Of a DNA stretch of 64,000 nucleotides, positions 8,556-60,626 are shown one piece after another. Under the pieces are notes generated by a model. That model searched no databases and was not told where the DNA came from. It saw only the letters and a program-made list of their open reading frames with translations. Source of the stretch: a virus. The position numbers and the translations under genes are program-made. Where the stretch lies: positions 25,750 through 89,749 of the IMG/VR virus record IMGVR_UViG_3300025168_009799. One strand, 5' to 3'. Every line of letters begins with the position of its first letter. Position 1 is the stretch's first letter.

Positions 8556-9641
8556 ATGAAGAATTTCTTAATATTTTTATTACTAGTATGTTCAACTAGT
8601 TTATATTCTCAAGATGTAGATTTTAAAGAGCTTATTAAAAAGCAATTGAAATTCTCTACGGTTTATGGGGCTGTAAATGGAGGAACTTCTGTATCAGATG
8701 TTAATAGATTTTCTGTTTTAGATGGGCTACAAACATCTATTATAGAGACTCCTTATGATTACTCTGTTACTTTTGGATTAAGAAAAATAGCAAGATTTGG
8801 TTATGAGAATAAAGCACAAACATTTTATGATGGTACAGAGTCTAATTATAGTGATGCTGCTACAGTAGGAAAAGTAAGAGGATTTGAATATTTATTTGAG
8901 ATAGATTACGCTAGACAACAAGGGGTAGATTATATAGATCAGCATCATTTTATTAGATATAGCTCTGATGATGATTGTGAGGGTCCTTATTGTATAGATC
9001 ATTTTGCAGCTAAAGCAGAGTATTTAAAAGACGGATTTGCTGATATAGAATATTTTGAATTATCAGAAAGGTATAGAATAAAAAGAAATAGAGATTTAGC
9101 AATTAGTATAGGTGTAACACATAGATTAGCAGAACCATATGGGTACAACCCTTTAGATGAATGGATGTTAAGTAATGGTAATTTACACTATACATATTTA
9201 GCTATAGAAGAAGGATATACAATAGATGTACGTGCAAATGAATATAAAGACCCTGATGGGAATGTAGTTGCTAATAGCGCAGAAGTATGGAAGGAAGTAG
9301 TAGTTCCACAAATACTATCTGACTATACTGAAAAGAAAAGAAATGAGTTAAAAAATATTATACAACATTCTCTTGTGATAGGATTTGATTATTATAAATA
9401 TAATAAAAAAACATGGTTACATGCTTGGGGTAATTTAATGCCTTGGCATTATAATGACGGTAACGAATTTTCATACCATAATTATATAACTGACGACCAA
9501 TGGTATGATTATTCTGCTGGACTTATATATGGTATAAAGCATAGTAAAAACTTAGGGTATTTTATTGAAGGAAAATATAATAAGTATTGGAATAGAGAAT
9601 GGTATGATTTTAAATTAGGAATTAATTACGTAATATTTTAA
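8556..9641 (+). CDS. Secreted, probable outer-membrane beta-barrel protein
   Basis: 361 aa. The N-terminus is a clear Sec signal peptide (short positive start, hydrophobic FLIFLLLVCSTSL, likely cleavage after YSQ near residue 19). The mature part has many amphipathic strands with aromatic girdle residues (YDYSVTFGLRKIARFGY, HSLVIGFDYYKYNKKTWL, YSAGLIYGIKH) and ends in a strand with a terminal Phe (FKLGINYVIF), the classic C-terminal signature of outer-membrane barrels. A phage-encoded envelope protein placed next to lysis genes could mask or replace a receptor (superinfection exclusion) or act in lysis. Structural use in the virion is less likely because of the signal peptide. Confidence 0.7.
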   Translation: MKNFLIFLLLVCSTSLYSQDVDFKELIKKQLKFSTVYGAVNGGTSVSDVNRFSVLDGLQTSIIETPYDYSVTFGLRKIARFGYENKAQTFYDGTESNYSDAATVGKVRGFEYLFEIDYARQQGVDYIDQHHFIRYSSDDDCEGPYCIDHFAAKAEYLKDGFADIEYFELSERYRIKRNRDLAISIGVTHRLAEPYGYNPLDEWMLSNGNLHYTYLAIEEGYTIDVRANEYKDPDGNVVANSAEVWKEVVVPQILSDYTEKKRNELKNIIQHSLVIGFDYYKYNKKTWLHAWGNLMPWHYNDGNEFSYHNYITDDQWYDYSAGLIYGIKHSKNLGYFIEGKYNKYWNREWYDFKLGINYVIF

Positions 9642-10659: not shown

Positions 10660-13020
10660 ATGAGAAAAATATTATTATTATTATTATTACCTATAATAAC
10701 TTTTGCACAAAAAGAAGTTGTTATACATGTAACAACAGATAATTATCCATCTGAAACAAGGTGGGTATTACATGCTGATAGTTTTCAAGGTCCTATACTA
10801 GATGAAGTAGCTTATGGATATTATGATTCTTCTAGTACTACTTATACGGATACAGTTTATATCCCAGATAGTATAACTAATATTTCTTGGGTTATATACG
10901 ATCAATATGGCGATGGTATGCCAGGAGGGAGTTATTATGTTTCTATATGTGGAGATACTATAGTTAATTATCCTGTACCTACATTTACAAATGGGTTAAT
11001 ACACAATAGAGTAGTTCCTCAATGTATGCCTAATCCACCACCGTGTGTACCAGCTAAGGTTATAATTAACTTAGATCAATATCAAAGTGAGACATCTTGG
11101 GACATAAAAGACACAAATGGGATAATTTATGCAGAATCAGTTACATACGCAGGAAATCCTGACTATGCTACTATTATAATACCTGTATGTGTACCTAAAG
11201 GAGACTTAATTTTTACTATATATGATAGCTATGGTGATGGGTTAAATGGTTCTTTATGGCAAGGGCAAGACGGTTCTTATTATTTAACACAATGTAATGA
11301 CACATTAATATATGGTACAGATCCAGCATTTGGTTCTGATACAACGCATGTATTTGCATCTGATTCATGCCCTCCTATATTAGGATGTACTGATCCAGCT
11401 TATACAGAGTTTAATCCATTTGCTAATTTAGATGATGGGTCTTGTTCTATATTAAAGATATTTGGATGTATTGATATATCAATGTACAATTTTGATCCTA
11501 CTGCTAATACAATGGATATGATTGATAGTTGTGATTACACATTAGTATTACACGATTTAATGGGTAATGGATGGGTTGGTTCTTCTTTAAAGATATATGC
11601 TGATGACACAACAGAATATTACAATGCTGGTGGATTTGATGATATTTACAGCGTTAGTTTAAGGGCTCCGGAATTAATAAGTATACAATTTTTTATTAGT
11701 TCTCAAGCAGCTTTAACAACAATAGAATGTGGTTTTACTTTAATTAATCCAGAAGGTGATACATTAATAAGTGTTCTACCTCCATTCATACAACCTTTAT
11801 TTGTTTATAATGTAATAACAGATTGTGGTAATACTTGTATCGAAAAGATATATGGGTGTACAATCTTAACAGCAGTAAATTATGATCCACTTGCAAATAC
11901 AGACGATGTAAGTTGTTATTATGATCCTGGATGTACTAGCCCTGCATTTTTAGAATATTATACTCAAGGGTTTGTAGCTGATTACGACGATGGTTCCTGT
12001 GCTACACAAGCTGTTTGGGGTTGTATTGACAGTACAGCATTTAACTACGACCCATTAGCTAATATAAGTAATGGAGGATGTGTACCTGTTATTATAGGGT
12101 GCATGCAACCTTTAGCATTTAATTATAATCCTAATGCTAATACTTCTGGGCCTTGTACTCCTATTATATATGGATGTATGAGCCAATTAGCTATTAATTA
12201 CGACTCATTAGCTAATACAGATGATGGAAGTTGTATAGGAATAGTGTATGGATGTACAGATACTTTAGCTTTTAATTGGGACCCTAATGCTAATGTAGAT
12301 GATAGCTCATGTGTGCCTGTTATATATGGGTGTATAAATCCAACTATGTTTAACTATTGTGATAGTTGTAATACTAACGATGGAAGTTGTATAGAAATAT
12401 TATATGGGTGCACTGATAGTACAATGTTTAATTATAATTCTTTAGCTAATGTTGATAACAGTTCTTGCATACCTTATATTTACGGTTGTACTGATCCTAG
12501 CATGCTTAACTATGAACCAACTGCTAATACAGAAGACTTTAATTGTATTCCTTTTGTTTATGGGTGTATGGATAATACTGCTATTAACTATGATACGTTA
12601 GCTAATACTGACAATGGTTCTTGTATTGAAGCGATTGCAGGATGTAGAGATCCAAATGCGTACAATTATAATCCTCTAGCAAATATATTAGCACATGACT
12701 CTTTAGGGTGTTTATATGCCGCGGATTGGTGCATAAATGGATCTGGTAACCCTTTCTTTTTAAACGACGAGTGTTATGCTTGGGTAATATCAGTAGATGA
12801 TTATTGTTGTGAAAATGAATGGGATAGTATCTGTCAATTAACTTATAATCATTGTGATGATAATTGGACAGGGTCTATACCTTCTAGATTAATGGTTACA
12901 AGTAAACGTACTTTAATAACTATTGTAGATGTTTTAGGTAGAGAAATAAAAGAAGAAACTAATCAGCTTCTATTCTATATATATGATGATGGAAGTGTAG
13001 ATAAAATAATAAAAGAATGA
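10660..13020 (+). CDS. Secreted Cys-repeat surface protein with a T9SS-like C-terminal sorting signal
   Basis: 786 aa. The signal peptide is a very Leu-rich MRKILLLLLLPIITFAQ. Next come three beta-sandwich-like domains marked by YDQYGDGMPGGSYY, YDSYGDGLNGS and HDLMGNGWVGSS. About thirteen units of a roughly 25-residue repeat follow, with the pattern GCtDxxAxNYxPxANxDdGSC, from near 11380 to 12715. Such repeats are common in secreted flavobacterial proteins. The C-terminus (ITIVDVLGREIKEE, then LLFYIYDDGSVDKIIKE) closely resembles the type A sorting domain that directs cargo through T9SS to the cell surface. It probably coats or modifies the infected cell surface. The stop overlaps the endolysin ATG (ATGA). 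Confidence 0.75.
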   Translation: MRKILLLLLLPIITFAQKEVVIHVTTDNYPSETRWVLHADSFQGPILDEVAYGYYDSSSTTYTDTVYIPDSITNISWVIYDQYGDGMPGGSYYVSICGDTIVNYPVPTFTNGLIHNRVVPQCMPNPPPCVPAKVIINLDQYQSETSWDIKDTNGIIYAESVTYAGNPDYATIIIPVCVPKGDLIFTIYDSYGDGLNGSLWQGQDGSYYLTQCNDTLIYGTDPAFGSDTTHVFASDSCPPILGCTDPAYTEFNPFANLDDGSCSILKIFGCIDISMYNFDPTANTMDMIDSCDYTLVLHDLMGNGWVGSSLKIYADDTTEYYNAGGFDDIYSVSLRAPELISIQFFISSQAALTTIECGFTLINPEGDTLISVLPPFIQPLFVYNVITDCGNTCIEKIYGCTILTAVNYDPLANTDDVSCYYDPGCTSPAFLEYYTQGFVADYDDGSCATQAVWGCIDSTAFNYDPLANISNGGCVPVIIGCMQPLAFNYNPNANTSGPCTPIIYGCMSQLAINYDSLANTDDGSCIGIVYGCTDTLAFNWDPNANVDDSSCVPVIYGCINPTMFNYCDSCNTNDGSCIEILYGCTDSTMFNYNSLANVDNSSCIPYIYGCTDPSMLNYEPTANTEDFNCIPFVYGCMDNTAINYDTLANTDNGSCIEAIAGCRDPNAYNYNPLANILAHDSLGCLYAADWCINGSGNPFFLNDECYAWVISVDDYCCENEWDSICQLTYNHCDDNWTGSIPSRLMVTSKRTLITIVDVLGREIKEETNQLLFYIYDDGSVDKIIKE
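11380..12715 (+). repeat. Thirteen tandem Cys-containing protein repeats (about 75-120 bp each)
   Basis: Each unit begins with a GC pair and ends with (D)GSC or a close variant; clear examples are YGCMSQLAINYDSLANTDDG and YGCTDTLAFNWDPNANVDDS. Two cysteines per unit at fixed spacing suggest one disulfide per repeat after export. Some units are degenerate, for example the one near 12340 with FNYCDSCNTNDGSC. The units diverge in DNA sequence, arguing for an old expansion or acquisition of an already repetitive host gene. Confidence 0.75.
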
Positions 13021-45100: not shown

Positions 45101-46568
45101 AGCAAATAATAATAATTTAAAAGCTTTACGTAACTTCATTGATATGAATTTTTATGGAGAACAAAATGTAAAATCACAAGTTGTTGTTCCTCTATTAAAT
45201 AAACAAATAGAAATGAATAAGGTAAGTAGTACTCTTATTGCATATACCGCAATGAACGCTTTATCTTTTAACTTGCTACAAGCTACAAATCAAGTTGTTC
45301 TTGATGATCTTATGAATTATGGAGAAGCTATGGGTGGAAAATATTATAATAGAAAACAATACTTTGCAGCTAAGAAAGAATATACTAAATATGGTATGTC
45401 TATGAAAGATTTAGCAGCTGGACGAGCTGTTACTAAATTAGGAGCTGCAATTGAGATGTTTGATCCTCTACAAGGAGAAATGAGTAGTAAATTAACCGGG
45501 AGATCTTTAGGTAGTAAAAGTAAACGAATGATGACTTCAGATTTTACCACGTTCTTACAACACGGCGCTGAACATGAAGTTGCTGTAACAAGAATGATAG
45601 CTCGTTTAATGAATATAAAACCTAAGAACGATAAGGGTAAATATATTAATAGACAAGGTAAAGAAACTGATATAAAGTCTCAAGGTGCTAGTTTGTGGAA
45701 TATGATCCAACAAGGAGATGTTAGACAAGAAAATGGTAATTTAGTACTTAAGAATGGTATTACTATTACTGATATAGAAATTAATAATATTAAAAATCAA
45801 TTACATGGTTTAACTAAATTATTAAATGGTGTTTATAATCAATTTGATAAAGCTGAGCTTAAAAGGCATTGGTGGGGAAAACCTTTCTTATTATTTAGAA
45901 GTTGGATGATGCCTGGTGTACGTAAAAGATATGGCCGAGAAGCTGGTTTAGGTATGCATATTGATGAAGAGTTAGGTACGTTAGGTGAAGGGTCTTATGT
46001 ATCCTTTGTTAGAGCCTTAAGGAATATGGTAATGGAAGCTAAAACAGGAGACTATTCTGAAGCTATGAAGATATTAGCAGGTAAAAGTGATACTTTAACC
46101 GATATGGAAAAATTAAATGTTTCTAGAACATTAAATGAAGTAATATCTATTGGGGTAACAATGATCTTATTTGCAGGATTAATGTCTATGATAGATGATG
46201 ATGACGATGAAATAGGATATGGTATGAATTTTACATTATATCAAGCTAAAAGATTACAAACAGAATTAAGAGCTTTTGTTCCGCTTCCTATGCTTGGTAT
46301 GACAGAGTTTTTACGTTTATTAGAATCTCCTACAGCTACATATAGCTCACTTGATAAGTTTGATGGCCTTTTAAAAGAGCTATTAACGCTTGGAGGTGAT
46401 ATGTTAGATGGAGAGTTAGAGGAGGGTAGAAGGTATAAGAGAAAAACTAGCGGCTATGAGAAAGGTACTCTTAAACTTAAAAAGAAATTTTGGGATGTAG
46501 TACCTATTATAAGAGGTCTTGAAAAAACTAAGACTCCTGAAGACGCTCTTAAGTGGTTTCTTCTTTAA
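42192..46568 (+). CDS. Large polyvalent virion protein with HExxH zincin motif (1458 aa)
   Basis: 1458 aa. HEFGH at residues 180-184 (in GDAVFHEFGHIYIDLLG) is a zinc metalloprotease HExxH preceded by a beta strand and followed by helices, and nearby residues LQKEVLATAIGFEGE could contribute a third ligand. Most of the protein is long, basic, alpha-helical sequence. The C-terminal third contains one hydrophobic helix (VISIGVTMILFAGLMSMI, about residues 1316-1333) next to a run of Asp residues, and FVPLPMLGM-type segments typical of polyvalent phage proteins. It ends by overlapping the leftward gene by 20 bases. It is likely packaged cargo, possibly a protease maturing other cargo or cutting host proteins after ejection. 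Confidence 0.65.
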   Translation: MACRINRDASDNILEVLTSRGVPSQLYEDIVKDLTVNQNKRLAALKDPFVASRLSKGNVRNTTAEEVAFGIYAKVSTSEFQNQVQKNSYRDLNNEISVTDPSIQKLYQVPTSNTVEGNMDIRNQQTANILSASFAKAGIKTHIKINNNLSDAARLMPQAADGTFVIQINPNKLPGDAVFHEFGHIYIDLLGLEHPVIKQAVEAFKYSRLWKFIEREYPGLTYEQLQKEVLATAIGFEGERIIKTEESSTVLERVIRNILDAIGKLFSITFVGKNYRNSARMLAQELYTGNVRTDINSVSAVDYIQRRKDYNELDALVQNTEIALKENINSLRSKGFEVKAEILEDNLKKLRKAKTRANTIRQLIKYAQVVSSQTQNMINSINQLEVLHENNDPTISKYSKNIASIYQYIHSHDHLEQIQDFLNKENLSPEEAKLLSTHNIPQVVQDLRDASSKFREIERKYNYIAPYILADQLLDYHNQDIDSELEKHLATMAKNKEDGRFFTIQLDKKDPDYVTLKQQETDGILTPEAFNEKVMQLNIEQLKNKFTVGRTQLVETLRKSIRDKSGISMWLDPFVHSTDVSFQLFAKKVKHAFDRADVVSTHSRNFLGNELGRYLKATGQSSFRPEKLNAPFVEVIDMLQYNPNTGAYELRKHKAFVQEYDVSKFYEKKKKFIDELYERLEYPKNGTEQDIANWMDTHTKQVTQELKKWDTENTVPIEGADQTIKSKLAELNKAYKLRKEAEKSKRLDLAAAAEHEEKRVRMWLNKNTRYADGKYTAIGLLARPTDNYKNPKYNKIQADSAKKRYYNALRKVHEASQDKIGEFKLRRKRNSWNNHSYILPSVRKQKRDMLFENGMLKVIKEASQSLNVQKGDDIYNSSIVHTEDETKKIPIYYTEDMVPEDVSVDLANSLLSFDHMANLFQSKSEIQDTVLMMEAQISNRDQVSTAPDGQPLMKRLAKTLGYNVHSTKKAANNNNLKALRNFIDMNFYGEQNVKSQVVVPLLNKQIEMNKVSSTLIAYTAMNALSFNLLQATNQVVLDDLMNYGEAMGGKYYNRKQYFAAKKEYTKYGMSMKDLAAGRAVTKLGAAIEMFDPLQGEMSSKLTGRSLGSKSKRMMTSDFTTFLQHGAEHEVAVTRMIARLMNIKPKNDKGKYINRQGKETDIKSQGASLWNMIQQGDVRQENGNLVLKNGITITDIEINNIKNQLHGLTKLLNGVYNQFDKAELKRHWWGKPFLLFRSWMMPGVRKRYGREAGLGMHIDEELGTLGEGSYVSFVRALRNMVMEAKTGDYSEAMKILAGKSDTLTDMEKLNVSRTLNEVISIGVTMILFAGLMSMIDDDDDEIGYGMNFTLYQAKRLQTELRAFVPLPMLGMTEFLRLLESPTATYSSLDKFDGLLKELLTLGGDMLDGELEEGRRYKRKTSGYEKGTLKLKKKFWDVVPIIRGLEKTKTPEDALKWFLL

Positions 46569-47133
46569 AATGTCTATCATAAAAAGAATCTTTAGTCCAT
46601 TCAAAAGTTATATCTACACCGTTCTCTCTAAGCCTTTTAAATTGACCTAAAAGCCATTCACTAGCTATAAGTAGAAGTTTATATGCATTATTACCTAGAG
46701 AAATATGTTTATGACCAATAAGATCCATACCATATACTTTAATATATGTTGCACCTAATCTAAACGCAAAAACAATTCCTACAAAAGTAGATGTCTTAGA
46801 GGTTGGAAAAATATTAGCATTGTCTATTGTATTTGATTGGATATCTGATTTAATTGCATAAGGCAAAAGCATTTCAGTAGGATTTTGCAATTTAATAGGA
46901 TTAAACTCATCATAATAACTAGTATTAAAAGTTACTAAGTTTTTTCTAGGTTTAGAATTTTTAATAGTAGATAGTCTATCTTTTGTAAAATTTTCAGGGG
47001 GATCCAGTACTAGTAAGTAATCGACTGTAATATTATATTTTTCAATATCATTTACACCTATTACTACATCGTAATTAGAAGATTCTTTATAATCTTTAAG
47101 AGAAGGGCCTAATCCTAAGACTGCAACTCGCAT
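46549..47133 (-). CDS. MptE-like/DUF115-type Rossmann protein
   Basis: 194 aa. The N-terminus MRVAVLGLGPSLKDYKES followed by YDVVIGVNDIEKYNITVDYL reads as a Rossmann nucleotide-binding start (GxGPSL) and 'GVND' motif, as in MptE-like (6-hydroxymethylpterin pyrophosphokinase-like) and DUF115 proteins, some of which act with glycan or sugar-nucleotide metabolism. A later IKVYGMDLIGH is consistent with that fold. The C-terminus overlaps the convergent rightward gene by 20 bases, and the start overlaps the SET gene stop by 19. It is the last leftward gene. A role in modifying surface glycans or a nucleotide is possible but not shown. Confidence 0.6.
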   Translation of the reverse strand: MRVAVLGLGPSLKDYKESSNYDVVIGVNDIEKYNITVDYLLVLDPPENFTKDRLSTIKNSKPRKNLVTFNTSYYDEFNPIKLQNPTEMLLPYAIKSDIQSNTIDNANIFPTSKTSTFVGIVFAFRLGATYIKVYGMDLIGHKHISLGNNAYKLLLIASEWLLGQFKRLRENGVDITFEWTKDSFYDRHFKEETT

Positions 47134-47441
47134 AAGTTATATAAACTATATTTTAAAGTTAATTCTTTTCCTTCTTCTATTTTTTTAATAGTTTTTAATC
47201 GTTTATATTCATCGTTTTCGTCTTCAATTAATTCACAATTAGGAGTATCGTTATGATTTATAAAGCCTCCTAAAGGAGTTCTAATCCAATCATGTTGAAA
47301 GTTTGGGTCATAGACATGACTTATACCAATGATAACACCTTGCGGTACATCTTCATTTGCAAAGATGCCCGCTCCGTGTATATCAGATGGTCCTATTGAT
47401 AAATAGTCAGGTAATGGTTTATAAGGTTTTTTATTTATCAT
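47115..47441 (-). CDS. Minimal SET-domain protein
   Basis: 108 aa, about the size of a bare SET core. It has the three recognisable signature regions in order: SDIHGAGIFANEDVPQGVII (the 'GxG' cofactor-binding start, residues about 19-38), GGFINHNDTPNCELI (the NHSxxPNC knot motif) and KIEEGKELTLKYSLYNL (the 'GEELTxxY' catalytic Tyr segment). SET proteins transfer methyl groups from S-adenosylmethionine to lysine. A phage version may methylate host or phage proteins, or bind them. It overlaps both neighbours by 11-19 bases in the leftward operon. Pre-SET and Cys-rich post-SET zinc motifs are absent. Confidence 0.75.
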   Translation of the reverse strand: MINKKPYKPLPDYLSIGPSDIHGAGIFANEDVPQGVIIGISHVYDPNFQHDWIRTPLGGFINHNDTPNCELIEDENDEYKRLKTIKKIEEGKELTLKYSLYNLCELQS

Positions 47442-47844
47442 TTTCTAATTCTTTTTGTAAATTAGCCAATGCTCTCCAAGCAACCTTAGCAGAATGTCTT
47501 ATACCATCAGTATCTAACGTTCCTGCATCAATCAAATGTCTAGATAAGGAGTCTAATTCATCAGTAGACTTATTACGGTCCCAATGTAGAGGCTTTTCTG
47601 GATGATGTTGATTATTTCCTGCTAGAGACACTTTTGATACTTCTTTTATAGCATCAGGAAAGTATTGTAAAACCCCACTAAAAACAGGAGTCTTTTTTCT
47701 GTCTTCTGCTTCTTTAAAAGGATCTCTATTTCTCTCAGTGTCCCAATAAAGGGCATTATGAGTGCTACTCATAGTATAAGGAGTATCAAATTCTATACCT
47801 TCTGGTACAGACATTTTTACTTCTTTTTTCTTTTTTATAGCCAT
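47431..47844 (-). CDS. dATP/dGTP diphosphohydrolase-domain-like protein (DUF5664-like)
   Basis: 137 aa. The sequence VFSGVLQYFPDAIKEVSKVS, the segment EKPLHWDRNKSTDELDSLSR, RHLIDAGTLDTDGIRHSAKV and AWRALANLQKELE follow the helical HxxxxD pattern of the phage DUF5664 family (PF18909, dATP/dGTP diphosphohydrolase N-terminal), related in function to MazG-type pyrophosphohydrolases. The Lys-rich N-terminus (MAIKKKKEVKM) precedes this domain. Such proteins adjust the dNTP pool during phage replication. The ending overlaps the SET start by 11 bases. I am fairly sure of the fold type but not of the substrate. Confidence 0.55.
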   Translation of the reverse strand: MAIKKKKEVKMSVPEGIEFDTPYTMSSTHNALYWDTERNRDPFKEAEDRKKTPVFSGVLQYFPDAIKEVSKVSLAGNNQHHPEKPLHWDRNKSTDELDSLSRHLIDAGTLDTDGIRHSAKVAWRALANLQKELENDK

Positions 47845-47992: not shown

Positions 47993-48730
47993 TTAAAAAT
48001 AATGTTTAGTATTTAGTGTTTCTTCTTCTAAGGTGGGTACACTAAGAACCTCTGAATCCTCTGGTAATTCTGCTCCTAATTTCGCTTCTAATATATTTCT
48101 ACGCACTGACGATTTAAATAATACTTGCCCTACAAATCCTTTTAGGGACTGTTTATGGAAAGCTAATATTCTAGATTTATAAAAATCTGTTAATTTAGAA
48201 TATTGTCCTTTTAAAAAGAGGTTTAACATGTCTTTAAATTTTATAGGAATTTTAAATATAAATACTATATGAGAATCTGTAGGTTTATAAGACTCTACAT
48301 AAGTAGGTAAATTTGCTAATATTCCTTTAAATTTTTTAAAGTCTGCTGTGCTCATATCATGATATAATAAAGTAATATAATAATTACTTTTATGAGGCAC
48401 TTTTATAAATACATTTAATAATAAAGTATCGTAAAAGAATGTCTTTTTAGTTTTACCTAACATAGGCAATATAAATATAGACGCTTTAGTCTTTCTCGCA
48501 GTTTGTAGATCATAATATGTATAAGTATTTTTACTTACTGCTTTAATACTATTTATCTTAAAATTGAGAGAATTTACAATTACTGTATCTCCTAACTTAA
48601 TAAGAGTTTTGTCTCCCAAAGTAAGGCCGGTAATTACACCAGAAATTTGATGAGTTTTTTTAACATTTAAAGCTCTAACTGTTAAAGAGTCTATAGGGAC
48701 TAGATGCATATATTGTTTTTCTATGACCAT
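47993..48730 (-). CDS. Hypothetical leftward-operon protein
   Basis: 245 aa, unrecognised. The first half is beta-rich with Lys/Thr-containing strands (TLGDKTLIKLGDTVIVNSLN; FKINSIKAVSKNTYTYYDLQ), reminiscent of small nucleic-acid or nucleotide-handling barrels. The second half is helical and basic (FKIPIKFKDMLNLFLKGQYS; KLTDFYKSRILAF). An acidic tail follows (ELPEDSEVLSVPTLEEE). It overlaps the exonuclease gene by 10 bases, suggesting a DNA-related role shared with it. No catalytic motif is visible and I would not assign a function. Confidence 0.5.
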   Translation of the reverse strand: MVIEKQYMHLVPIDSLTVRALNVKKTHQISGVITGLTLGDKTLIKLGDTVIVNSLNFKINSIKAVSKNTYTYYDLQTARKTKASIFILPMLGKTKKTFFYDTLLLNVFIKVPHKSNYYITLLYHDMSTADFKKFKGILANLPTYVESYKPTDSHIVFIFKIPIKFKDMLNLFLKGQYSKLTDFYKSRILAFHKQSLKGFVGQVLFKSSVRRNILEAKLGAELPEDSEVLSVPTLEEETLNTKHYF

Positions 48731-49479
48731 AATTCATCGGTTTTATCTTCTAAATTTATCTCATGAACTGCTAGTTCTGGCAATACTACACCAGTCTCTA
48801 ATAATGCTTCTTCTTTAGTTTTTAGAATATAAACTAATTTAAAAGTCTCTGCAAATCTATGAATTCCTTCGTGAATACCAAACTTTTCTATGTATTTATT
48901 TAATACCATGGCAGGCATATCATCAAATTGAACGTTATTCATAAGCTTTATTGCAGTTTTAGGTCCTAATTTAGGTATTCCTTGAATTCCATCAGTAGGA
49001 TCTCCCATTAACATTTGTTTCCATAAAAATAATCCTGCTTCTGTAGGTGTTGTATGTATCATCTCTGCAGTTCTATAATTAAAATGTTCTCCCTCTACTT
49101 GATGTAAAACATCTTTATCAGGACTACAAATCATAGTATTTCCATTTAAACCTTCACCGTAAATACTTACTAAATCATCTGCTTCTAATTCTGTTATATA
49201 TGTAAAATTCCAGTTCTGCTTTAAATATTCTTTTATTGCAGGGAATATAATTGGTTTATTTCCGTGTTTTCTATTTCCTTTATATTTTTTTGTAGTTGCT
49301 CTGTTATATCTAAAACATTTTCCTACTGTTAAAAATCCAGCATATTTATTCGTCTCGGCTTTCTCTAACATTGTCTGTATTCTATCATCTATTCCTAGTA
49401 AAGCTTCTTCTAAAGTGGGTTTGCCCATTTCAAAATAAATTAGGCTGTCCCCATCTATTAAGACTGTTGTTTTTTTCAT
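48721..49479 (-). CDS. 5'-3' exonuclease / flap endonuclease
   Basis: 252 aa. Motifs in order: LIDGDSLIYFE (residues 7-17, metal-binding DxD), ELEADDLVSIYGE (acidic pair), CSPDKDVLHQV (SxDKD), and GDPTDGIQGIPKLGPKTAIK, the metal-binding GDxxDGIxGIPxxGPKTA helix-3-turn-helix loop. These are the hallmarks of the PIN-like 5' nuclease family (T5 D15, T7 gp6, PolA 5' domain). It removes RNA primers and flaps during phage DNA replication. It is followed by a 10-base overlap with a hypothetical protein and preceded by a hairpin terminator (49501-49526). The start is the ATG at 49477-49479 after a long A-rich leader. Confidence 0.85.
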   Translation of the reverse strand: MKKTTVLIDGDSLIYFEMGKPTLEEALLGIDDRIQTMLEKAETNKYAGFLTVGKCFRYNRATTKKYKGNRKHGNKPIIFPAIKEYLKQNWNFTYITELEADDLVSIYGEGLNGNTMICSPDKDVLHQVEGEHFNYRTAEMIHTTPTEAGLFLWKQMLMGDPTDGIQGIPKLGPKTAIKLMNNVQFDDMPAMVLNKYIEKFGIHEGIHRFAETFKLVYILKTKEEALLETGVVLPELAVHEINLEDKTDELWS

Positions 49480-49544: not shown

Positions 49545-50711
49545 CTACAGCGCATTCAGCTCTGCAACTTGCCTGTCGCATTCAGCTTTCTTTTCAGATT
49601 TTTCTTGAACCGCTATAGCTCTCATTTCGTCCCACTCTGCATCTGTTTTAGCTGCATAAGTAGAACTGTGGTAAATAGACCCATTCACACCAGCTAAGGA
49701 TGAATGAACAAAATATTGCTTACATCTAATAGCACCATCTTCATCACAAGGTACTGCACCTATATGCATAGGATCTACAAATACATTATGAATCTCACCA
49801 CTATAATAAGCAATGTACTTAAGACCACCAAGATGTAGACCTTTAACACATGATACAGTATCATTAACGTTAACTTGATCCCATTTTTCTAGTCTATGAG
49901 TACATCCAACTTTGATAAAATGTCCTGGATTATTAAAACCATTAGGCCCTTCGCAAAAGAAAGCATCGCCGCTTCCACCCATTATAGCTGGCTCAAACAA
50001 TCTGTCTTCTACATGCTCTGGTAATCCATCGCCTTCTATCTCACCAGTGTCAGGATTGAAAGTACGTTTGTACCTATCAACTTTTTCACCGGTTTCTTGG
50101 TCAAACTTATGAAGCACTTCACTAGAGACTTTGTAACCATTTAGTAATCCCTCATGGGTGATTTTCATTTGGTACATCATTGCTCTTTTGGAAGCTGCTT
50201 CATCAGTAAGACCTTGTTCTACAAGCTCTTCTTTAAACTTTGGATGCTCATACTGCAAGTTCACAAAGTTAAAGAATCTCTCACAGAAATCGTTTCCGTA
50301 ACCTTGCTTCATTTTTCTCCACAAAATTGGGTTACGCAACCATCTAGTCCACATTTTAACTAAAGGCATAAAGTCTATCTCTTTATCAATAGATTCAAAG
50401 ATTCTGTCTACTAACGCTTGAGGCATAGGTATCGTAGATACTACACCTTCGTGTTTAAGAAAGAATTCTCCGGTTCCTTTATTAACGTGAATGTATTCAC
50501 ATTGTGTTTCAATAGTTTTAGTATAATCTACAACACATAAAGGAGCAAATTCTTCCATTACTTCGTTGTATTCTTCTACTGTAGTTACACCTTGAGCCTT
50601 ATGGTCAAGTTGTTTCATTCTTTCGTATAGTTCTTTACTATACTCAACTGTAAAAGCGTTGTCTCCATAGCTTCCACAGATTTTGTCATCAATGACATTG
50701 ATTGTAATCAT
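49545..50711 (-). CDS. rIIB: rIIB-like protein
   Basis: 388 aa. The N-terminal half is helical. The C-terminal domain contains GHFIKVGCTHRLEKWDQVNV, then SCVKGLHLGGLKYIAYYSGE and HNVFVDPMHIGAVPCDED, which follows the 'C-x-x-GLHxG-xxY ... VxPxxxxAVP' pattern of T4 rIIB-type proteins. T4 rIIB acts with rIIA at the membrane in lysis control and in resistance to the Rex abortive-infection system. The partner rIIA-like gene is two genes upstream, with a radical SAM gene between. The gene-symbol use is by analogy. Confidence 0.7.
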   Translation of the reverse strand: MITINVIDDKICGSYGDNAFTVEYSKELYERMKQLDHKAQGVTTVEEYNEVMEEFAPLCVVDYTKTIETQCEYIHVNKGTGEFFLKHEGVVSTIPMPQALVDRIFESIDKEIDFMPLVKMWTRWLRNPILWRKMKQGYGNDFCERFFNFVNLQYEHPKFKEELVEQGLTDEAASKRAMMYQMKITHEGLLNGYKVSSEVLHKFDQETGEKVDRYKRTFNPDTGEIEGDGLPEHVEDRLFEPAIMGGSGDAFFCEGPNGFNNPGHFIKVGCTHRLEKWDQVNVNDTVSCVKGLHLGGLKYIAYYSGEIHNVFVDPMHIGAVPCDEDGAIRCKQYFVHSSLAGVNGSIYHSSTYAAKTDAEWDEMRAIAVQEKSEKKAECDRQVAELNAL

Positions 50712-50729
50712 AATTAAATATTTAATTGG

Positions 50730-51590
50730 TTAAAAAATATACCGTATTTTATTCCACGGTATTTTGGAATTGTGTAAATTTATAAATCTTTTAATAAACT
50801 CAGACTTATGTCCTAGTTTATATCTAATATTCTCTCCCCCATATTGCGAAGTTTTTGTTTCCTGTATTGCAGGCATCCAAAGATCTTCTTCAGTTTCCGG
50901 GTGGGCATTCATATTATCTGTGTGTTTTTTAAAATTGTGCGTTAAAAATATACATTCTGAAAACACTGTCTCTTGGTTTCTTACATAAACATTTAGCAAT
51001 TCAAATAAGTGATTGTAATCATCTAGCCATCCATCATATACAATAATAGGACTAAAATTTACATGTACATCGTATCCTGCTTCTACAAATCTATCAATAG
51101 CTTGTACTCTCTCTAATATAAGAGAAGTATTAGGTTCGTGTAGATTTGCTTTATTTTGAGGCATTAGACTAAATCTAATTCTTATTTTACCGTTAGGGTT
51201 AAATTTAAGTAGATTTTTATTTACATATTTAGTTGCAAAAGAACCCATAGCTATTGGGTGATCTCTAAAGAATTCAAATATTCTTTCCCAATCATGATGT
51301 TTAGCGTGTAATGCAAAATCTTCATTACAGCTTATATCATATGTTGTGAATTCAGGATGTGTTTGATTAGGCTTTTCCACTGGTGTGAAATACGCATGAT
51401 TATTAACCGCAGTTAATATATCACCCGTATTCACAGCAATAGATAATCCCTGATCTTTATGGCGTTTCATATAACAATAAGAGCAATTATATAAACAACC
51501 AAATCCAAAGCTTGGACTTATAAAATCTGTGGACCTACCAGAAGGACGTATTTTAAACGTCTTTCTAGTGTCCTTAGTTATGAGTCCCAA
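50730..51590 (-). CDS. Radical SAM enzyme, spore-photoproduct-lyase-like (SplB type)
   Basis: 286 aa. The iron-sulfur motif GFGCLYNCSYCYMKRH has Cys at residues 32, 36 and 39 (CxxxCxxC), the radical SAM signature, and the surrounding SPSFGFGCLYNCSYC is close to the spore photoproduct lyase-like subgroup. Downstream segments LLKFNPNGKIRIRFSLMPQN (strand with Arg cluster) and VHVNFSPIIVYDGWLDDYNH fit the TIM-barrel core. It overlaps the rIIA gene by 13 bases. Possible roles are repair or modification of DNA, or RNA modification. The substrate cannot be told from sequence. Confidence 0.75.
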   Translation of the reverse strand: MGLITKDTRKTFKIRPSGRSTDFISPSFGFGCLYNCSYCYMKRHKDQGLSIAVNTGDILTAVNNHAYFTPVEKPNQTHPEFTTYDISCNEDFALHAKHHDWERIFEFFRDHPIAMGSFATKYVNKNLLKFNPNGKIRIRFSLMPQNKANLHEPNTSLILERVQAIDRFVEAGYDVHVNFSPIIVYDGWLDDYNHLFELLNVYVRNQETVFSECIFLTHNFKKHTDNMNAHPETEEDLWMPAIQETKTSQYGGENIRYKLGHKSEFIKRFINLHNSKIPWNKIRYIF

Positions 51591-54325
51591 ACTTCACGGG
51601 CTTTAGCTCGTAGGTAGATTCTGAGTTCTTTTTCTAAGTTAGGTGGCATATCGCACTCTCTTTTGTTAAGACACTCTAGCTCATCCAGGAGCGGTTTTAC
51701 TTCTTCTGCAAATTCAACTATATTCTCATATTTAGCTAATATATCTAAGTCTGCAGCTCTCGCATTACTAATATCAGACAAGACAAACATTTCTTTCGAC
51801 TTTTCTTGCATTAGTTCTGCATCATCACATTCATTACAAAACTTTTGGAACTCATATAGTTTATCCATGTGTTCAGTTATAGCTGGTGCTACATCTCTCA
51901 CACGTCTATACTCATACTCAGAATAAAAATCATTCCTCATATCTTGTAGCTCACAATAATCTTTTTGTAATTGATCATGTATACATCCTAAACCTTGCAT
52001 AAATTTAAATTGATTTATTTTTTCTAATTTATGTGCGGTATAGTAATTTACTAGTGTTTCATCCATATTATATTCATTATTATTGTTAGTTTGTAAAAAG
52101 AAATCATCAATGTGTTTGACATTAGGGTTTTGTTTAATAAACTTAACCTTATTTTCACTCACACGTATAAATTGAGGCGCGTCCCACCCTTGAACAGGAG
52201 TAGCCCAGCTTTCATACTCTTCTCCACTATATTTCATATAACGAACAGGAGGATTATCAAACCAGAAAACAGGCCAGTTATATTCTTTATCCCAGTTATT
52301 CATAGGCCCATTTGTATATACTTTTTTGTATGAAGGTTGAATATTCTTAAGAAGAAGAGCAGCTTTTTTCATCTTACCTTCATCTTCCTTAGTACAATAA
52401 TAAGTACGATACTTACTATTCATAAGATCAATTGTTTTAGGTTCAATCTTATCCATAGTAAAGGAATCATCTTTTTTATCATCATATCTAATAGTGTAGG
52501 CAACTATTCTCTTTTCTATCTCTCTCCGTTCAGAAGGAGATAAATCAGTAAATTTAGATTTCTCTTCTTCAATAGCTATCTCTTCTTTATGTCGAGTCAA
52601 CCATTCTTCAGGAACTTCAAGCTCATCATAAGATTGGTACCATTCAGATGTTTCAATCAGTTTAACAATAGCATTACGTTTAGCTGTAACTCTAGTTTTT
52701 TGTTTCATGATTTTCTGAATAGCATCAGCATTACCTGAAGCTTTTTTAAGAGCATTATCAAACTTCTCATTTAAATCTTCAATAGTATAAGTAGCAACAT
52801 GATTTTTATGATAAGAGTCTTCTTGGCCTTTATCCATAAGATATATATCTTTGTACTTAGACCATTTACCTTCTCTTTCATAGAAATGCTTAGCATCAAA
52901 ACCGTTCCAATCTTTAATTGGTTCTCTTTTAATACCATCATGGCGATCTTCATAAGGCTTCATAATAGTCAAACCTTCAAATAATTTATTAGCTGGACCA
53001 TACTTAATTCTAGGGTCAGGTTTAAATTTAGGTTTCATATCGTCAGTATTTATAATACGTGATAATTTATTAAGAATTCTGTTCTCACTACTGTTACCAG
53101 TAATAATAGATCTACAAGCATCAACCCACTTAAGAAAGTCAGTTTCTTGTAATTCTTCTTCTATAATGTCACTAGCTTCTTGAGCAGCTGACATGATTAC
53201 ACTTTTAATGTATTTCTTAGTAGCCTCATTCCATATAACTTTCTCACGAGATGGAGTAACATCTACACCGTCTTGTAATACAACTTCTCTACCTTCATTA
53301 TCCATAACAACTTGTCTTGCAGGGCATTTGAATGCAATAGAACCATACATCTGCTCCATTTCTAGCTCACGAAAGTCAATATAACCATAGTTAATACCTG
53401 TAGTAGCATTTTCATCTTTAACAAGTACAATGTGCGGCTTGTTAAAATAGTAAGAATCAGATATTATAAGGTTTTTAGAGTTGTAAATAACTTCAGCTTG
53501 AAACTCAACTTTTCTTTCTTTCTCATACTCATCTTCAGGATCTAGAATTGTAAAGTTAACATTATCAAAGTACATTAACTGCTCTTCAATAGCTTCTTCA
53601 AACTTACTACGATTGTGCTTCTTAACGCCAAATGATACAGTAGTTTGATTAGTAGCCTCAGTAGGAACATAATATACTTTAGACCCATCACTAAATGTAA
53701 CAAAAGGATTCTGTTGTCCAGTCTCTACATTAAATGCAGGTATAATAAAATCAGTCTTGTAGTTAAAACAGTTACATTTAAACCTCATACCATTGTAAAC
53801 AGTTTCTATAGTATAAAAGTCTACACCTGTTGATAGCGCAGCTTTTGCACCAAGACCAAAGGCACCGAAATTTTCACTAGTATTTCTTTTCGTAGAATAA
53901 CCTAGTTCCAATATACCTTCTAAACGTCTTGCTCCAATACCTACTCCAAAATCAGTAACTGCAAATGTATCACAATAACCTACACCCTCATTTTTAGTAT
54001 ACATCAACTCTATCTCAGATGCAACATCTAAATGATCCCTATTATAATAACTTATATCAAAGTTACTATCTTCATATTGAGCACCGTGGCGTTCAATATA
54101 ATAGTCTTCAACTTTCTTTGTCCCCATTAATATTTCTATAGCTATTTCTTTCTCACGTTGAGAGTCACATGCATTTGTAACTAACTCTCTAACTGTAGAT
54201 TGAACAGGCATAGAATACTGTGTGGATTGAAGAATGTCAAATACCATTTTCTCAGCGCCTTTGTTAATTTTCTTAGCTATGCCGGCGCTGCCCTGCATAG
54301 GTTTATCAATTGTTTTAATACTCAT
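51578..54325 (-). CDS. rIIA: rIIA-like GHKL ATPase
   Basis: 915 aa, close to the T4 rIIA size. The GHKL fold motifs are in order: RELVTNACDSQ (E47, N51, D54, N box), TDFGVGIG (residues 124-131, G1 box) and FGAFGLGAKAALS (153-165, G2 box with the lid Gly). After this comes a transducer-like beta/alpha region and a long helical C-terminus. rIIA pairs with rIIB in phage lysis timing and exclusion resistance. It overlaps the radical SAM gene by 13 bases and the upstream gene by 11, giving an rIIA - radical SAM - rIIB order. Confidence 0.8.
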   Translation of the reverse strand: MSIKTIDKPMQGSAGIAKKINKGAEKMVFDILQSTQYSMPVQSTVRELVTNACDSQREKEIAIEILMGTKKVEDYYIERHGAQYEDSNFDISYYNRDHLDVASEIELMYTKNEGVGYCDTFAVTDFGVGIGARRLEGILELGYSTKRNTSENFGAFGLGAKAALSTGVDFYTIETVYNGMRFKCNCFNYKTDFIIPAFNVETGQQNPFVTFSDGSKVYYVPTEATNQTTVSFGVKKHNRSKFEEAIEEQLMYFDNVNFTILDPEDEYEKERKVEFQAEVIYNSKNLIISDSYYFNKPHIVLVKDENATTGINYGYIDFRELEMEQMYGSIAFKCPARQVVMDNEGREVVLQDGVDVTPSREKVIWNEATKKYIKSVIMSAAQEASDIIEEELQETDFLKWVDACRSIITGNSSENRILNKLSRIINTDDMKPKFKPDPRIKYGPANKLFEGLTIMKPYEDRHDGIKREPIKDWNGFDAKHFYEREGKWSKYKDIYLMDKGQEDSYHKNHVATYTIEDLNEKFDNALKKASGNADAIQKIMKQKTRVTAKRNAIVKLIETSEWYQSYDELEVPEEWLTRHKEEIAIEEEKSKFTDLSPSERREIEKRIVAYTIRYDDKKDDSFTMDKIEPKTIDLMNSKYRTYYCTKEDEGKMKKAALLLKNIQPSYKKVYTNGPMNNWDKEYNWPVFWFDNPPVRYMKYSGEEYESWATPVQGWDAPQFIRVSENKVKFIKQNPNVKHIDDFFLQTNNNNEYNMDETLVNYYTAHKLEKINQFKFMQGLGCIHDQLQKDYCELQDMRNDFYSEYEYRRVRDVAPAITEHMDKLYEFQKFCNECDDAELMQEKSKEMFVLSDISNARAADLDILAKYENIVEFAEEVKPLLDELECLNKRECDMPPNLEKELRIYLRAKAREVWDS

Positions 54326-59903: not shown

Positions 59904-60081
59904 TTAATTGATATTTAGTTATTAATTCAGTTCTTTTTTTCTTTAAATCATAAATTTTTGCTCGTGGAGGTCTAGCAATAGAACATTCACTTTCAACTGT
60001 ATTAATTCTATTTGCTTTTTCCATCTTTTTAATAGTAGCGTTAAGATTCATAATGATCTCTTTTGCTTTATCTTCACCCAT
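59887..60081 (-). CDS. Small coiled-coil protein coupled to the collagen-like gene
   Basis: 64 aa from the ATG at 60079-60081; an upstream ATG at 60097-60099 would add six residues. The chosen start overlaps the collagen-like gene stop in a TAATG arrangement, typical of coupled translation. The sequence (KAKEIIMNLNATIKKMEKAN; IYDLKKKRTELITKYQL) is predicted helical and basic. It may assist the collagen-like protein or be independent. No family recognised. Confidence 0.5.
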   Translation of the reverse strand: MGEDKAKEIIMNLNATIKKMEKANRINTVESECSIARPPRAKIYDLKKKRTELITKYQLNGNTN

Positions 60082-60626
60082 TATTCTGCTCTTCTCCAAT
60101 TACCAACTCCTCCACCTAATCTATCTTCAGGTCTTAGATCTTCTTCTTCTCCAAGTAAATGTCTTATGTAAGAATTAGCCATTTCTAATTTATCAATTCT
60201 TAATTCTAAGTTTTTTACTTCACCTGCAGCTCCTGCTGGACCAGCGTCACCTTTTTCTCCTTTATGTCCATCAGCACCTTTTTCTCCTGTAGCGCCTTTA
60301 GGACCTCTAGGACCTGTTTCACCGGTTGCTCCATCAAGACCGTCTGTACCATCTTTACCTGCTTTAGCTACAATACCGTCTTTACCATCTAGACCATCTT
60401 TACCGTTAAGTCCATTTTCTCCGTCTTTACCGTCGTCGCCATTTCTACCAGGTAAGCCAGTATCGCCTATAGTACCTTTCTCTCCTTGAGGGCCTTGGTC
60501 CCCTTTTTTAAGTTTAAAGTTACTATTTGCTATTTTTGTTACAATTCTACTCTCAATTTGTGACGCAATGTACATACCTGCAGCTATGCCTACGCCTAGC
60601 ACAGTACATAAAATTATTATTTCCAT
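60081..60626 (-). CDS. Membrane-anchored collagen-like (Gly-X-Y) protein
   Basis: 181 aa. The N-terminal helix IIILCTVLGVGIAAGMYIAS spans the membrane once, with no lipobox. It is followed by a charged linker and then about 30 Gly-X-Y triplets (from residue about 42 to 134, for example GPQGEKGTIGDTGLPG), rich in Asp and Lys. A C-terminal helical segment (KNLELRIDKLEMANSYIRHL) may trimerise. Collagen-like triplets form a rod. A membrane anchor and a place among early replication genes are unusual, since most phage collagen-like proteins are fibre parts. It starts 20 bases after the DnaB-like stop. Confidence 0.75.
   Translation of the reverse strand: MEIIILCTVLGVGIAAGMYIASQIESRIVTKIANSNFKLKKGDQGPQGEKGTIGDTGLPGRNGDDGKDGENGLNGKDGLDGKDGIVAKAGKDGTDGLDGATGETGPRGPKGATGEKGADGHKGEKGDAGPAGAAGEVKNLELRIDKLEMANSYIRHLLGEEEDLRPEDRLGGGVGNWRRAE

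Follow-up and report, generated by a model that had tools for sequence, protein, structure and literature searches.

In textbooks, SET enzymes are the proteins that write histone marks. Closest in predicted fold to the protein described here is vSET of Paramecium bursaria chlorella virus 1 (A612L; PDB: 1N3J/3KMA), likewise a stand-alone, single-domain viral SET protein (~110–120 amino acids), described as a homodimer that acts on a histone tail; closest by sequence profile is the SET domain of MLL1/KMT2A. A further point of reference is BurB, a small bacterial SET-fold SAM enzyme of 172 amino acids that forms a tetramer and S-methylates free methionine (PMC12542666), which we compare by its published description.

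Within the window (the whole 64,000-nucleotide stretch of viral DNA analysed), we find the gene for a compact, 108-amino acid SET-fold protein, here called mini-SET, assigned from its open reading frame, Pfam and PHROG matches and predicted fold. The frame runs exactly from 47115 to 47441 on the minus strand, from an ATG start. That start overlaps the stop of an upstream gene of 137 amino acids (47431–47844, minus strand), and the mini-SET gene also overlaps the start of a downstream gene of 194 amino acids (46549–47133, minus strand; weakly MptE-like, below cut-off), placing it inside a tightly packed leftward operon. From its upstream end, the operon reads rIIA (51578–54325; E=2e-16), rIIB (49545–50711; E=1.7e-8), a 5′-3′ exonuclease (48721–49479), a 245-amino acid protein with no assigned function (47993–48730), the 137-amino acid gene and then SET, all on the minus strand; the adjacent rII block proposed by an earlier, sequence-only reading of this DNA is therefore real. 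Two related phages, L005 and L270, carry SET in the same operon order, with syntenic counterparts of the RIIA, RIIB, exonuclease and 245-amino acid genes; the 194-amino acid gene has no counterpart at the equivalent place in either. The 137-amino acid gene is a mosaic, its N-terminal part common to the syntenic gene of L005 and L270, its C-terminal half matching the N-terminal domain of dATP/dGTP diphosphohydrolases, with up to 64% identity to other phage proteins. Between rIIA and rIIB of the window lies a radical SAM gene of the spore photoproduct lyase family (50730–51590, minus strand; TIGR03886, E 6e-93, below its cut-off), where in L005 and L270 the two rII genes adjoin directly; similar lyase-like genes are also seen near SET genes in L059 and L078.

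The three signatures first noticed in the letters (IHGAGIFA, GGFINHNDTPNC and EEGKELTLKY) are present, in that order. Mini-SET scores 39 bits with the Pfam SET family (PF00856; cut-off 22.4; E=1.1e-9), and the same family is matched by all 68 of the aligned relatives (E≤0.01). Searched against solved SET enzymes, the family profile places MLL1 first (E 2e-9), with vSET at E 5e-7; SxIHGxGLF, FINHSxxPNC and GEELTxxY are common to MLL1 and mini-SET. An AlphaFold2 model built on the 68-row alignment adopts a SET fold (pLDDT 87.9, pTM 0.76), and a Foldseek search of the PDB with this model returns vSET at the top (E 4.9e-6; TM 0.69/0.71; 20% identity), followed by the SET domains of MLL and SUV420; 212 PDB entries match at E≤0.001, the best 50 of which were listed and are all SET structures. 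Over 380 pairs of SET genes from the window's clade the median dN/dS is 0.17, and the clade evolves under purifying selection. We conclude that the window encodes a real SET-fold protein, a stand-alone minimal SET in a phage, as the sequence-only reading had it, on the combined grounds of sequence, fold, conservation and synteny; a chance reading frame is rejected on the E-values, dN/dS and synteny. An NCBIfam match to AnkI/LegAS4 falls far below cut-off (19.9 against 550 bits) and does not make mini-SET a member of that family.

The closest family entry is PHROG 28741, which matches mini-SET over nearly its full length (residues 7–103 to profile positions 3–98 of 100; E 8e-25) and is labelled ‘unknown function’. 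Copies found by tblastn in the Prochlorococcus cyanophages P-RSM6 and P-SSM7, Pelagibacter phage Kolga EXVC016S and marine virus AG-345-P14 (44–47% identity over almost the full protein length) belong to the same family and share its invariants, but sit in other phage groups and among other gene neighbours than those of the window; they are entered as ‘hypothetical protein’ or lie in an unannotated record, bearing out the suspicion that such a gene is easily overlooked. SET proteins in phages are already known to databases: the Foldseek matches in a viral library include uncultured-phage proteins named ‘SET domain containing protein’. Our literature search turned up no publication on SET proteins of phages, functional or otherwise. 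A second family, PHROG 34170 (e.g. in podovirus ctfPj964), is related through its C-terminal SET region (E 6e-6) but is longer (~294 amino acids) owing to an additional N-terminal half that matches tail-associated families; one such protein (L012:3440-4324, 294 amino acids), with a tail-associated N-terminal domain followed by SET, is unannotated in its podovirus record.

Residue conservation was scored over 87 sequences, 50 viral and 37 bacterial, and the motif positions that follow (all minus strand) are taken from the alignment. Motif I is an invariant, SAM-binding G23-x-G25 (47367–47375). At the canonical position of motif II the family has an invariant of its own, His42 (47316–47318), within GI[ST]H. 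Motif III, IRTPLGGFINHNDTPN (residues 53–68; 47238–47285), holds the invariant R54, G58 and F60 and the N62-H63 pair, and motif IV, ELTLKY (residues 93–98; 47148–47165), ends in the presumed catalytic Tyr98. G23, G25, G39, H42, R54, G58, F60, N62, H63 and E93 are identical in 87/87 sequences; Y98 is found in every row but one, a bacterial sequence gapped there because its reading frame is incomplete. An N-terminal Y.PLP, GI[ST]H and IRTPLGGF[IFY]NH serve as signatures of the subfamily, and the motifs do not vary among homologues, whether syntenic or not. Neither outcome that the sequence-only reading had named as refuting it, a fold other than SET or motif loss in syntenic homologues, was seen. 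By alignment, then, mini-SET keeps the GxG and NH motifs, as SAM binding would require, and a putative catalytic tyrosine. Some SET proteins are non-catalytic, and the loss of the canonical motif II would suit a dead fold retained as a binding protein; the invariance of the catalytic Tyr, GxG and NH motifs across viral and bacterial members argues against this reading, which we regard as highly improbable.

The canonical motif-II tyrosine (xxYxG) is absent in 68/68 aligned members, column 40 holding I, V or T, and none of the 68 has an aromatic residue at the Phe/Tyr switch (column 96: L, V, C, T, I, S or A). Where MLL1 has 40 residues between the aligned anchors, the family has 13; its SET-I region, some 27 residues shorter, is all but lost and contains no helix in our AlphaFold2 model; unlike MLL1, mini-SET also has no post-SET cysteines. 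From vSET it differs in sequence (~20% identity), in length (over the aligned stretch the family falls ~15 residues short of vSET), in its own invariants, His42 and Arg54, and in setting, the phages concerned infecting bacteria, hosts without histone H3. Judged by alignment, mini-SET thus departs from the canonical lysine methyltransferase in its motif-II and switch aromatics and its SET-I insert and, with these absent or cut down, neither a classical lysine channel nor a peptide groove is evident. Methylation of host or phage proteins, as the sequence-only reading had suggested, is therefore a candidate rather than an established activity, canonical motif II and SET-I being missing and BurB acting on a free amino acid.

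We nevertheless think it probable, from the conserved residues and their distribution, that mini-SET is a compact, catalytically competent methyltransferase that depends on SAM and belongs to a separate marine subfamily, the phage having it as an auxiliary version of an enzyme of host type, with a substrate that phage and host have in common. Such a protein would methylate some substrate; to a lysine side chain, in a protein of either the cell or the phage, as for stand-alone vSET, we would give about an even chance, and it is the vSET precedent that makes a protein lysine appear more likely than a small molecule.

The main rival, on account of BurB and of the strongly reduced peptide groove, is that mini-SET methylates a small molecule (an amino acid or other metabolite) and serves the phage as a metabolic auxiliary gene. 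The missing motif-II and switch aromatics and the shortened SET-I would suit this, as would some bacterial gene neighbourhoods, with names read from sequence: in Marinimicrobia SET adjoins genes resembling SAM synthetase (metK) and SAH hydrolase (ahcY), in SAR11 apparent methyl-donor or methyl-metabolism-like genes, and in one Bacteroidota MAG it lies within an arginine/proline gene cluster. In several Flavobacteriaceae SET lies near a thioesterase-like gene (likewise named from sequence), and the flavobacterial copies, having no evident metabolic partner, count against the idea. BurB itself cuts both ways. Its short His72–His93 spacing equals that of His42–His63 in the family (21), a match drawn from published residue numbering only, but it is the longer protein, and as a candidate homologue (9L4T/9L4V) it was, over several queries, not among the matches listed, whether for an N-terminal profile at E up to 10 or in the Foldseek top 50, the presence of these entries in the databases being unconfirmed. 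On balance we consider a small-molecule substrate rather unlikely.

A genome scan for bacterial relatives yielded 187 encoding stretches, of which 80 were kept for study; these derive mostly from single-cell genomes of SAR11 and Marinimicrobia, with Flavobacteriales, SAR86 and others besides. Some stretches look like phage contigs (e.g. in a Synechococcus bin), and many lie on long chromosomal contigs of up to 1.46 Mb. Among other genomes sampled, a SET relative occurs in 20/117 of the SAR11 family and 13/300 of Flavobacteriaceae; a search of plasmids with a SAR86 member as query found no copy. Together with at least 585 stretches encoding relatives in IMG/VR, scanned with the family alignment, these data describe a widespread compact SET family, present in many marine phages and on the chromosomes of SAR11, Marinimicrobia and Flavobacteriaceae, ‘marine’ here resting on the named phages and bacteria. 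The minimal phage SET of the first interpretation stands, but not as an isolated oddity, given hundreds of viral copies and chromosomal relatives in bacteria.

In the tree, the crAss-like SETs form one clade (SH-aLRT 100), while viral branches are intermixed with bacterial ones at low support, the alignment having too few columns to settle their order; with phage and bacterial sequences so poorly resolved, a host origin of the gene is not provable. That the two versions would share a substrate, or have similar ones, is suggested by the non-canonical polar invariants, His42 and Arg54, being identical in both, and also by the lack of any phage partner gene shared across lineages: clustering of the neighbours of SET loci found none in common. 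For the phage it would be an auxiliary enzyme of host type and not a component tied to a single phage gene.

The carrier phage appears, from its terminase (TerL; ~40% identical over 97% of its length to those of crAss-like phages), to be crAss-like. In the window's record terminase adjoins portal with no SET between them, as is also the case at this junction in L005 and L270 (terminases 79–83% identical to the window's). Across 75 classifiable relatives with terminases at least 78% identical, 52 have SET precisely at the junction of terminase and portal; the remaining 23 have no SET at the junction but, IMG/VR contigs being fragments, may carry the gene elsewhere in the genome. In L025 and L034 the gene occupies a third place, near ribonucleotide reductase-like genes; here the SET proteins are 73–77% identical to the window's and the terminases only 24–25%, a disparity that points to transfer between distant crAss-like phages. 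A single SET copy is found in each of the ten matching viral records searched. SET has at least three locations, of which the rII neighbourhood is one, and this neighbourhood is uninformative about function, contrary to its earlier use as a clue; with location specific to the lineage, the gene is mobile and not tied to the rII block, and an rII-linked function is rejected.

The packaging junction invites another reading, a special case of protein methylation: modification of a virion, packaging or DNA-binding protein (terminase, portal or an HU/IHF-like protein), bearing on head filling or assembly. Beyond the 52 junction copies, SET directly precedes what look like terminase or portal genes in other lineages (L057, L082 group) and lies beside gp25 in cyanomyovirus P-RSM6, a podovirus has it fused to a tail-like domain, and the phage has an HU/IHF-like gene (L014:7016-7246; Pfam E 5e-5). 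Against this, structural genes make up a large share of phage genomes, so that such neighbours are expected by chance; many bacterial chromosomes have SET without any phage module; and other copies lie instead in the rII/exonuclease operon (window, L005 and L270) or near ribonucleotide reductase-like genes (L025 and L034). Phage gene order is a guide to expression timing, and a gene that varies between packaging junction and rII/exonuclease operon speaks against a virion role with strict timing. We take a virion or packaging target to be unlikely.

The same mobility, and the non-structural operon of the window, might instead suit an action on a host defence or regulatory protein, as counter-defence or in host take-over. 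The closeness of homologues that are ordinary chromosomal genes of marine bacteria speaks against it, as does PADLOC, which matched neither mini-SET nor its two neighbours; we consider it very unlikely. The lack of a PADLOC match likewise led us to reject a defence gene identity for mini-SET itself.

Our preferred reading of a host-type auxiliary methyltransferase leaves room for a bolder one, which we put forward tentatively and regard as doubtful: that the compact clan of SAR11, Marinimicrobia, flavobacteria and marine phages, with its non-canonical active site, might carry out a methylation new to SET enzymes, of a protein residue or a metabolite, portable across unrelated phage lineages. 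A stripped-down SET protein, labelled hypothetical or of unknown function, is found on hundreds of marine phage contigs and in streamlined ocean bacteria. Were it active, marine phages would be making recurrent use of protein (or metabolite) methylation, and the 108-amino acid protein would be a small, testable model of a SET core that dispenses with SET-I and post-SET parts.

Elsewhere in the window, a gene at 8556–9641 (plus strand) has an NCBIfam metallo-beta-lactamase match over its first 87 residues, far below cut-off and presumably a chance similarity. At 10660–13020 (plus strand), a protein of 786 amino acids with a signal-like start and repeats of a Cys-containing unit gives no Pfam or NCBIfam match; its C-terminus resembles the sorting tail of proteins secreted by Bacteroidota, which would be consistent with a host from that phylum. 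In the replication-side operon, a collagen-like triple-helix repeat protein is encoded at 60081–60626 (minus strand; PF01391, E 3e-16).
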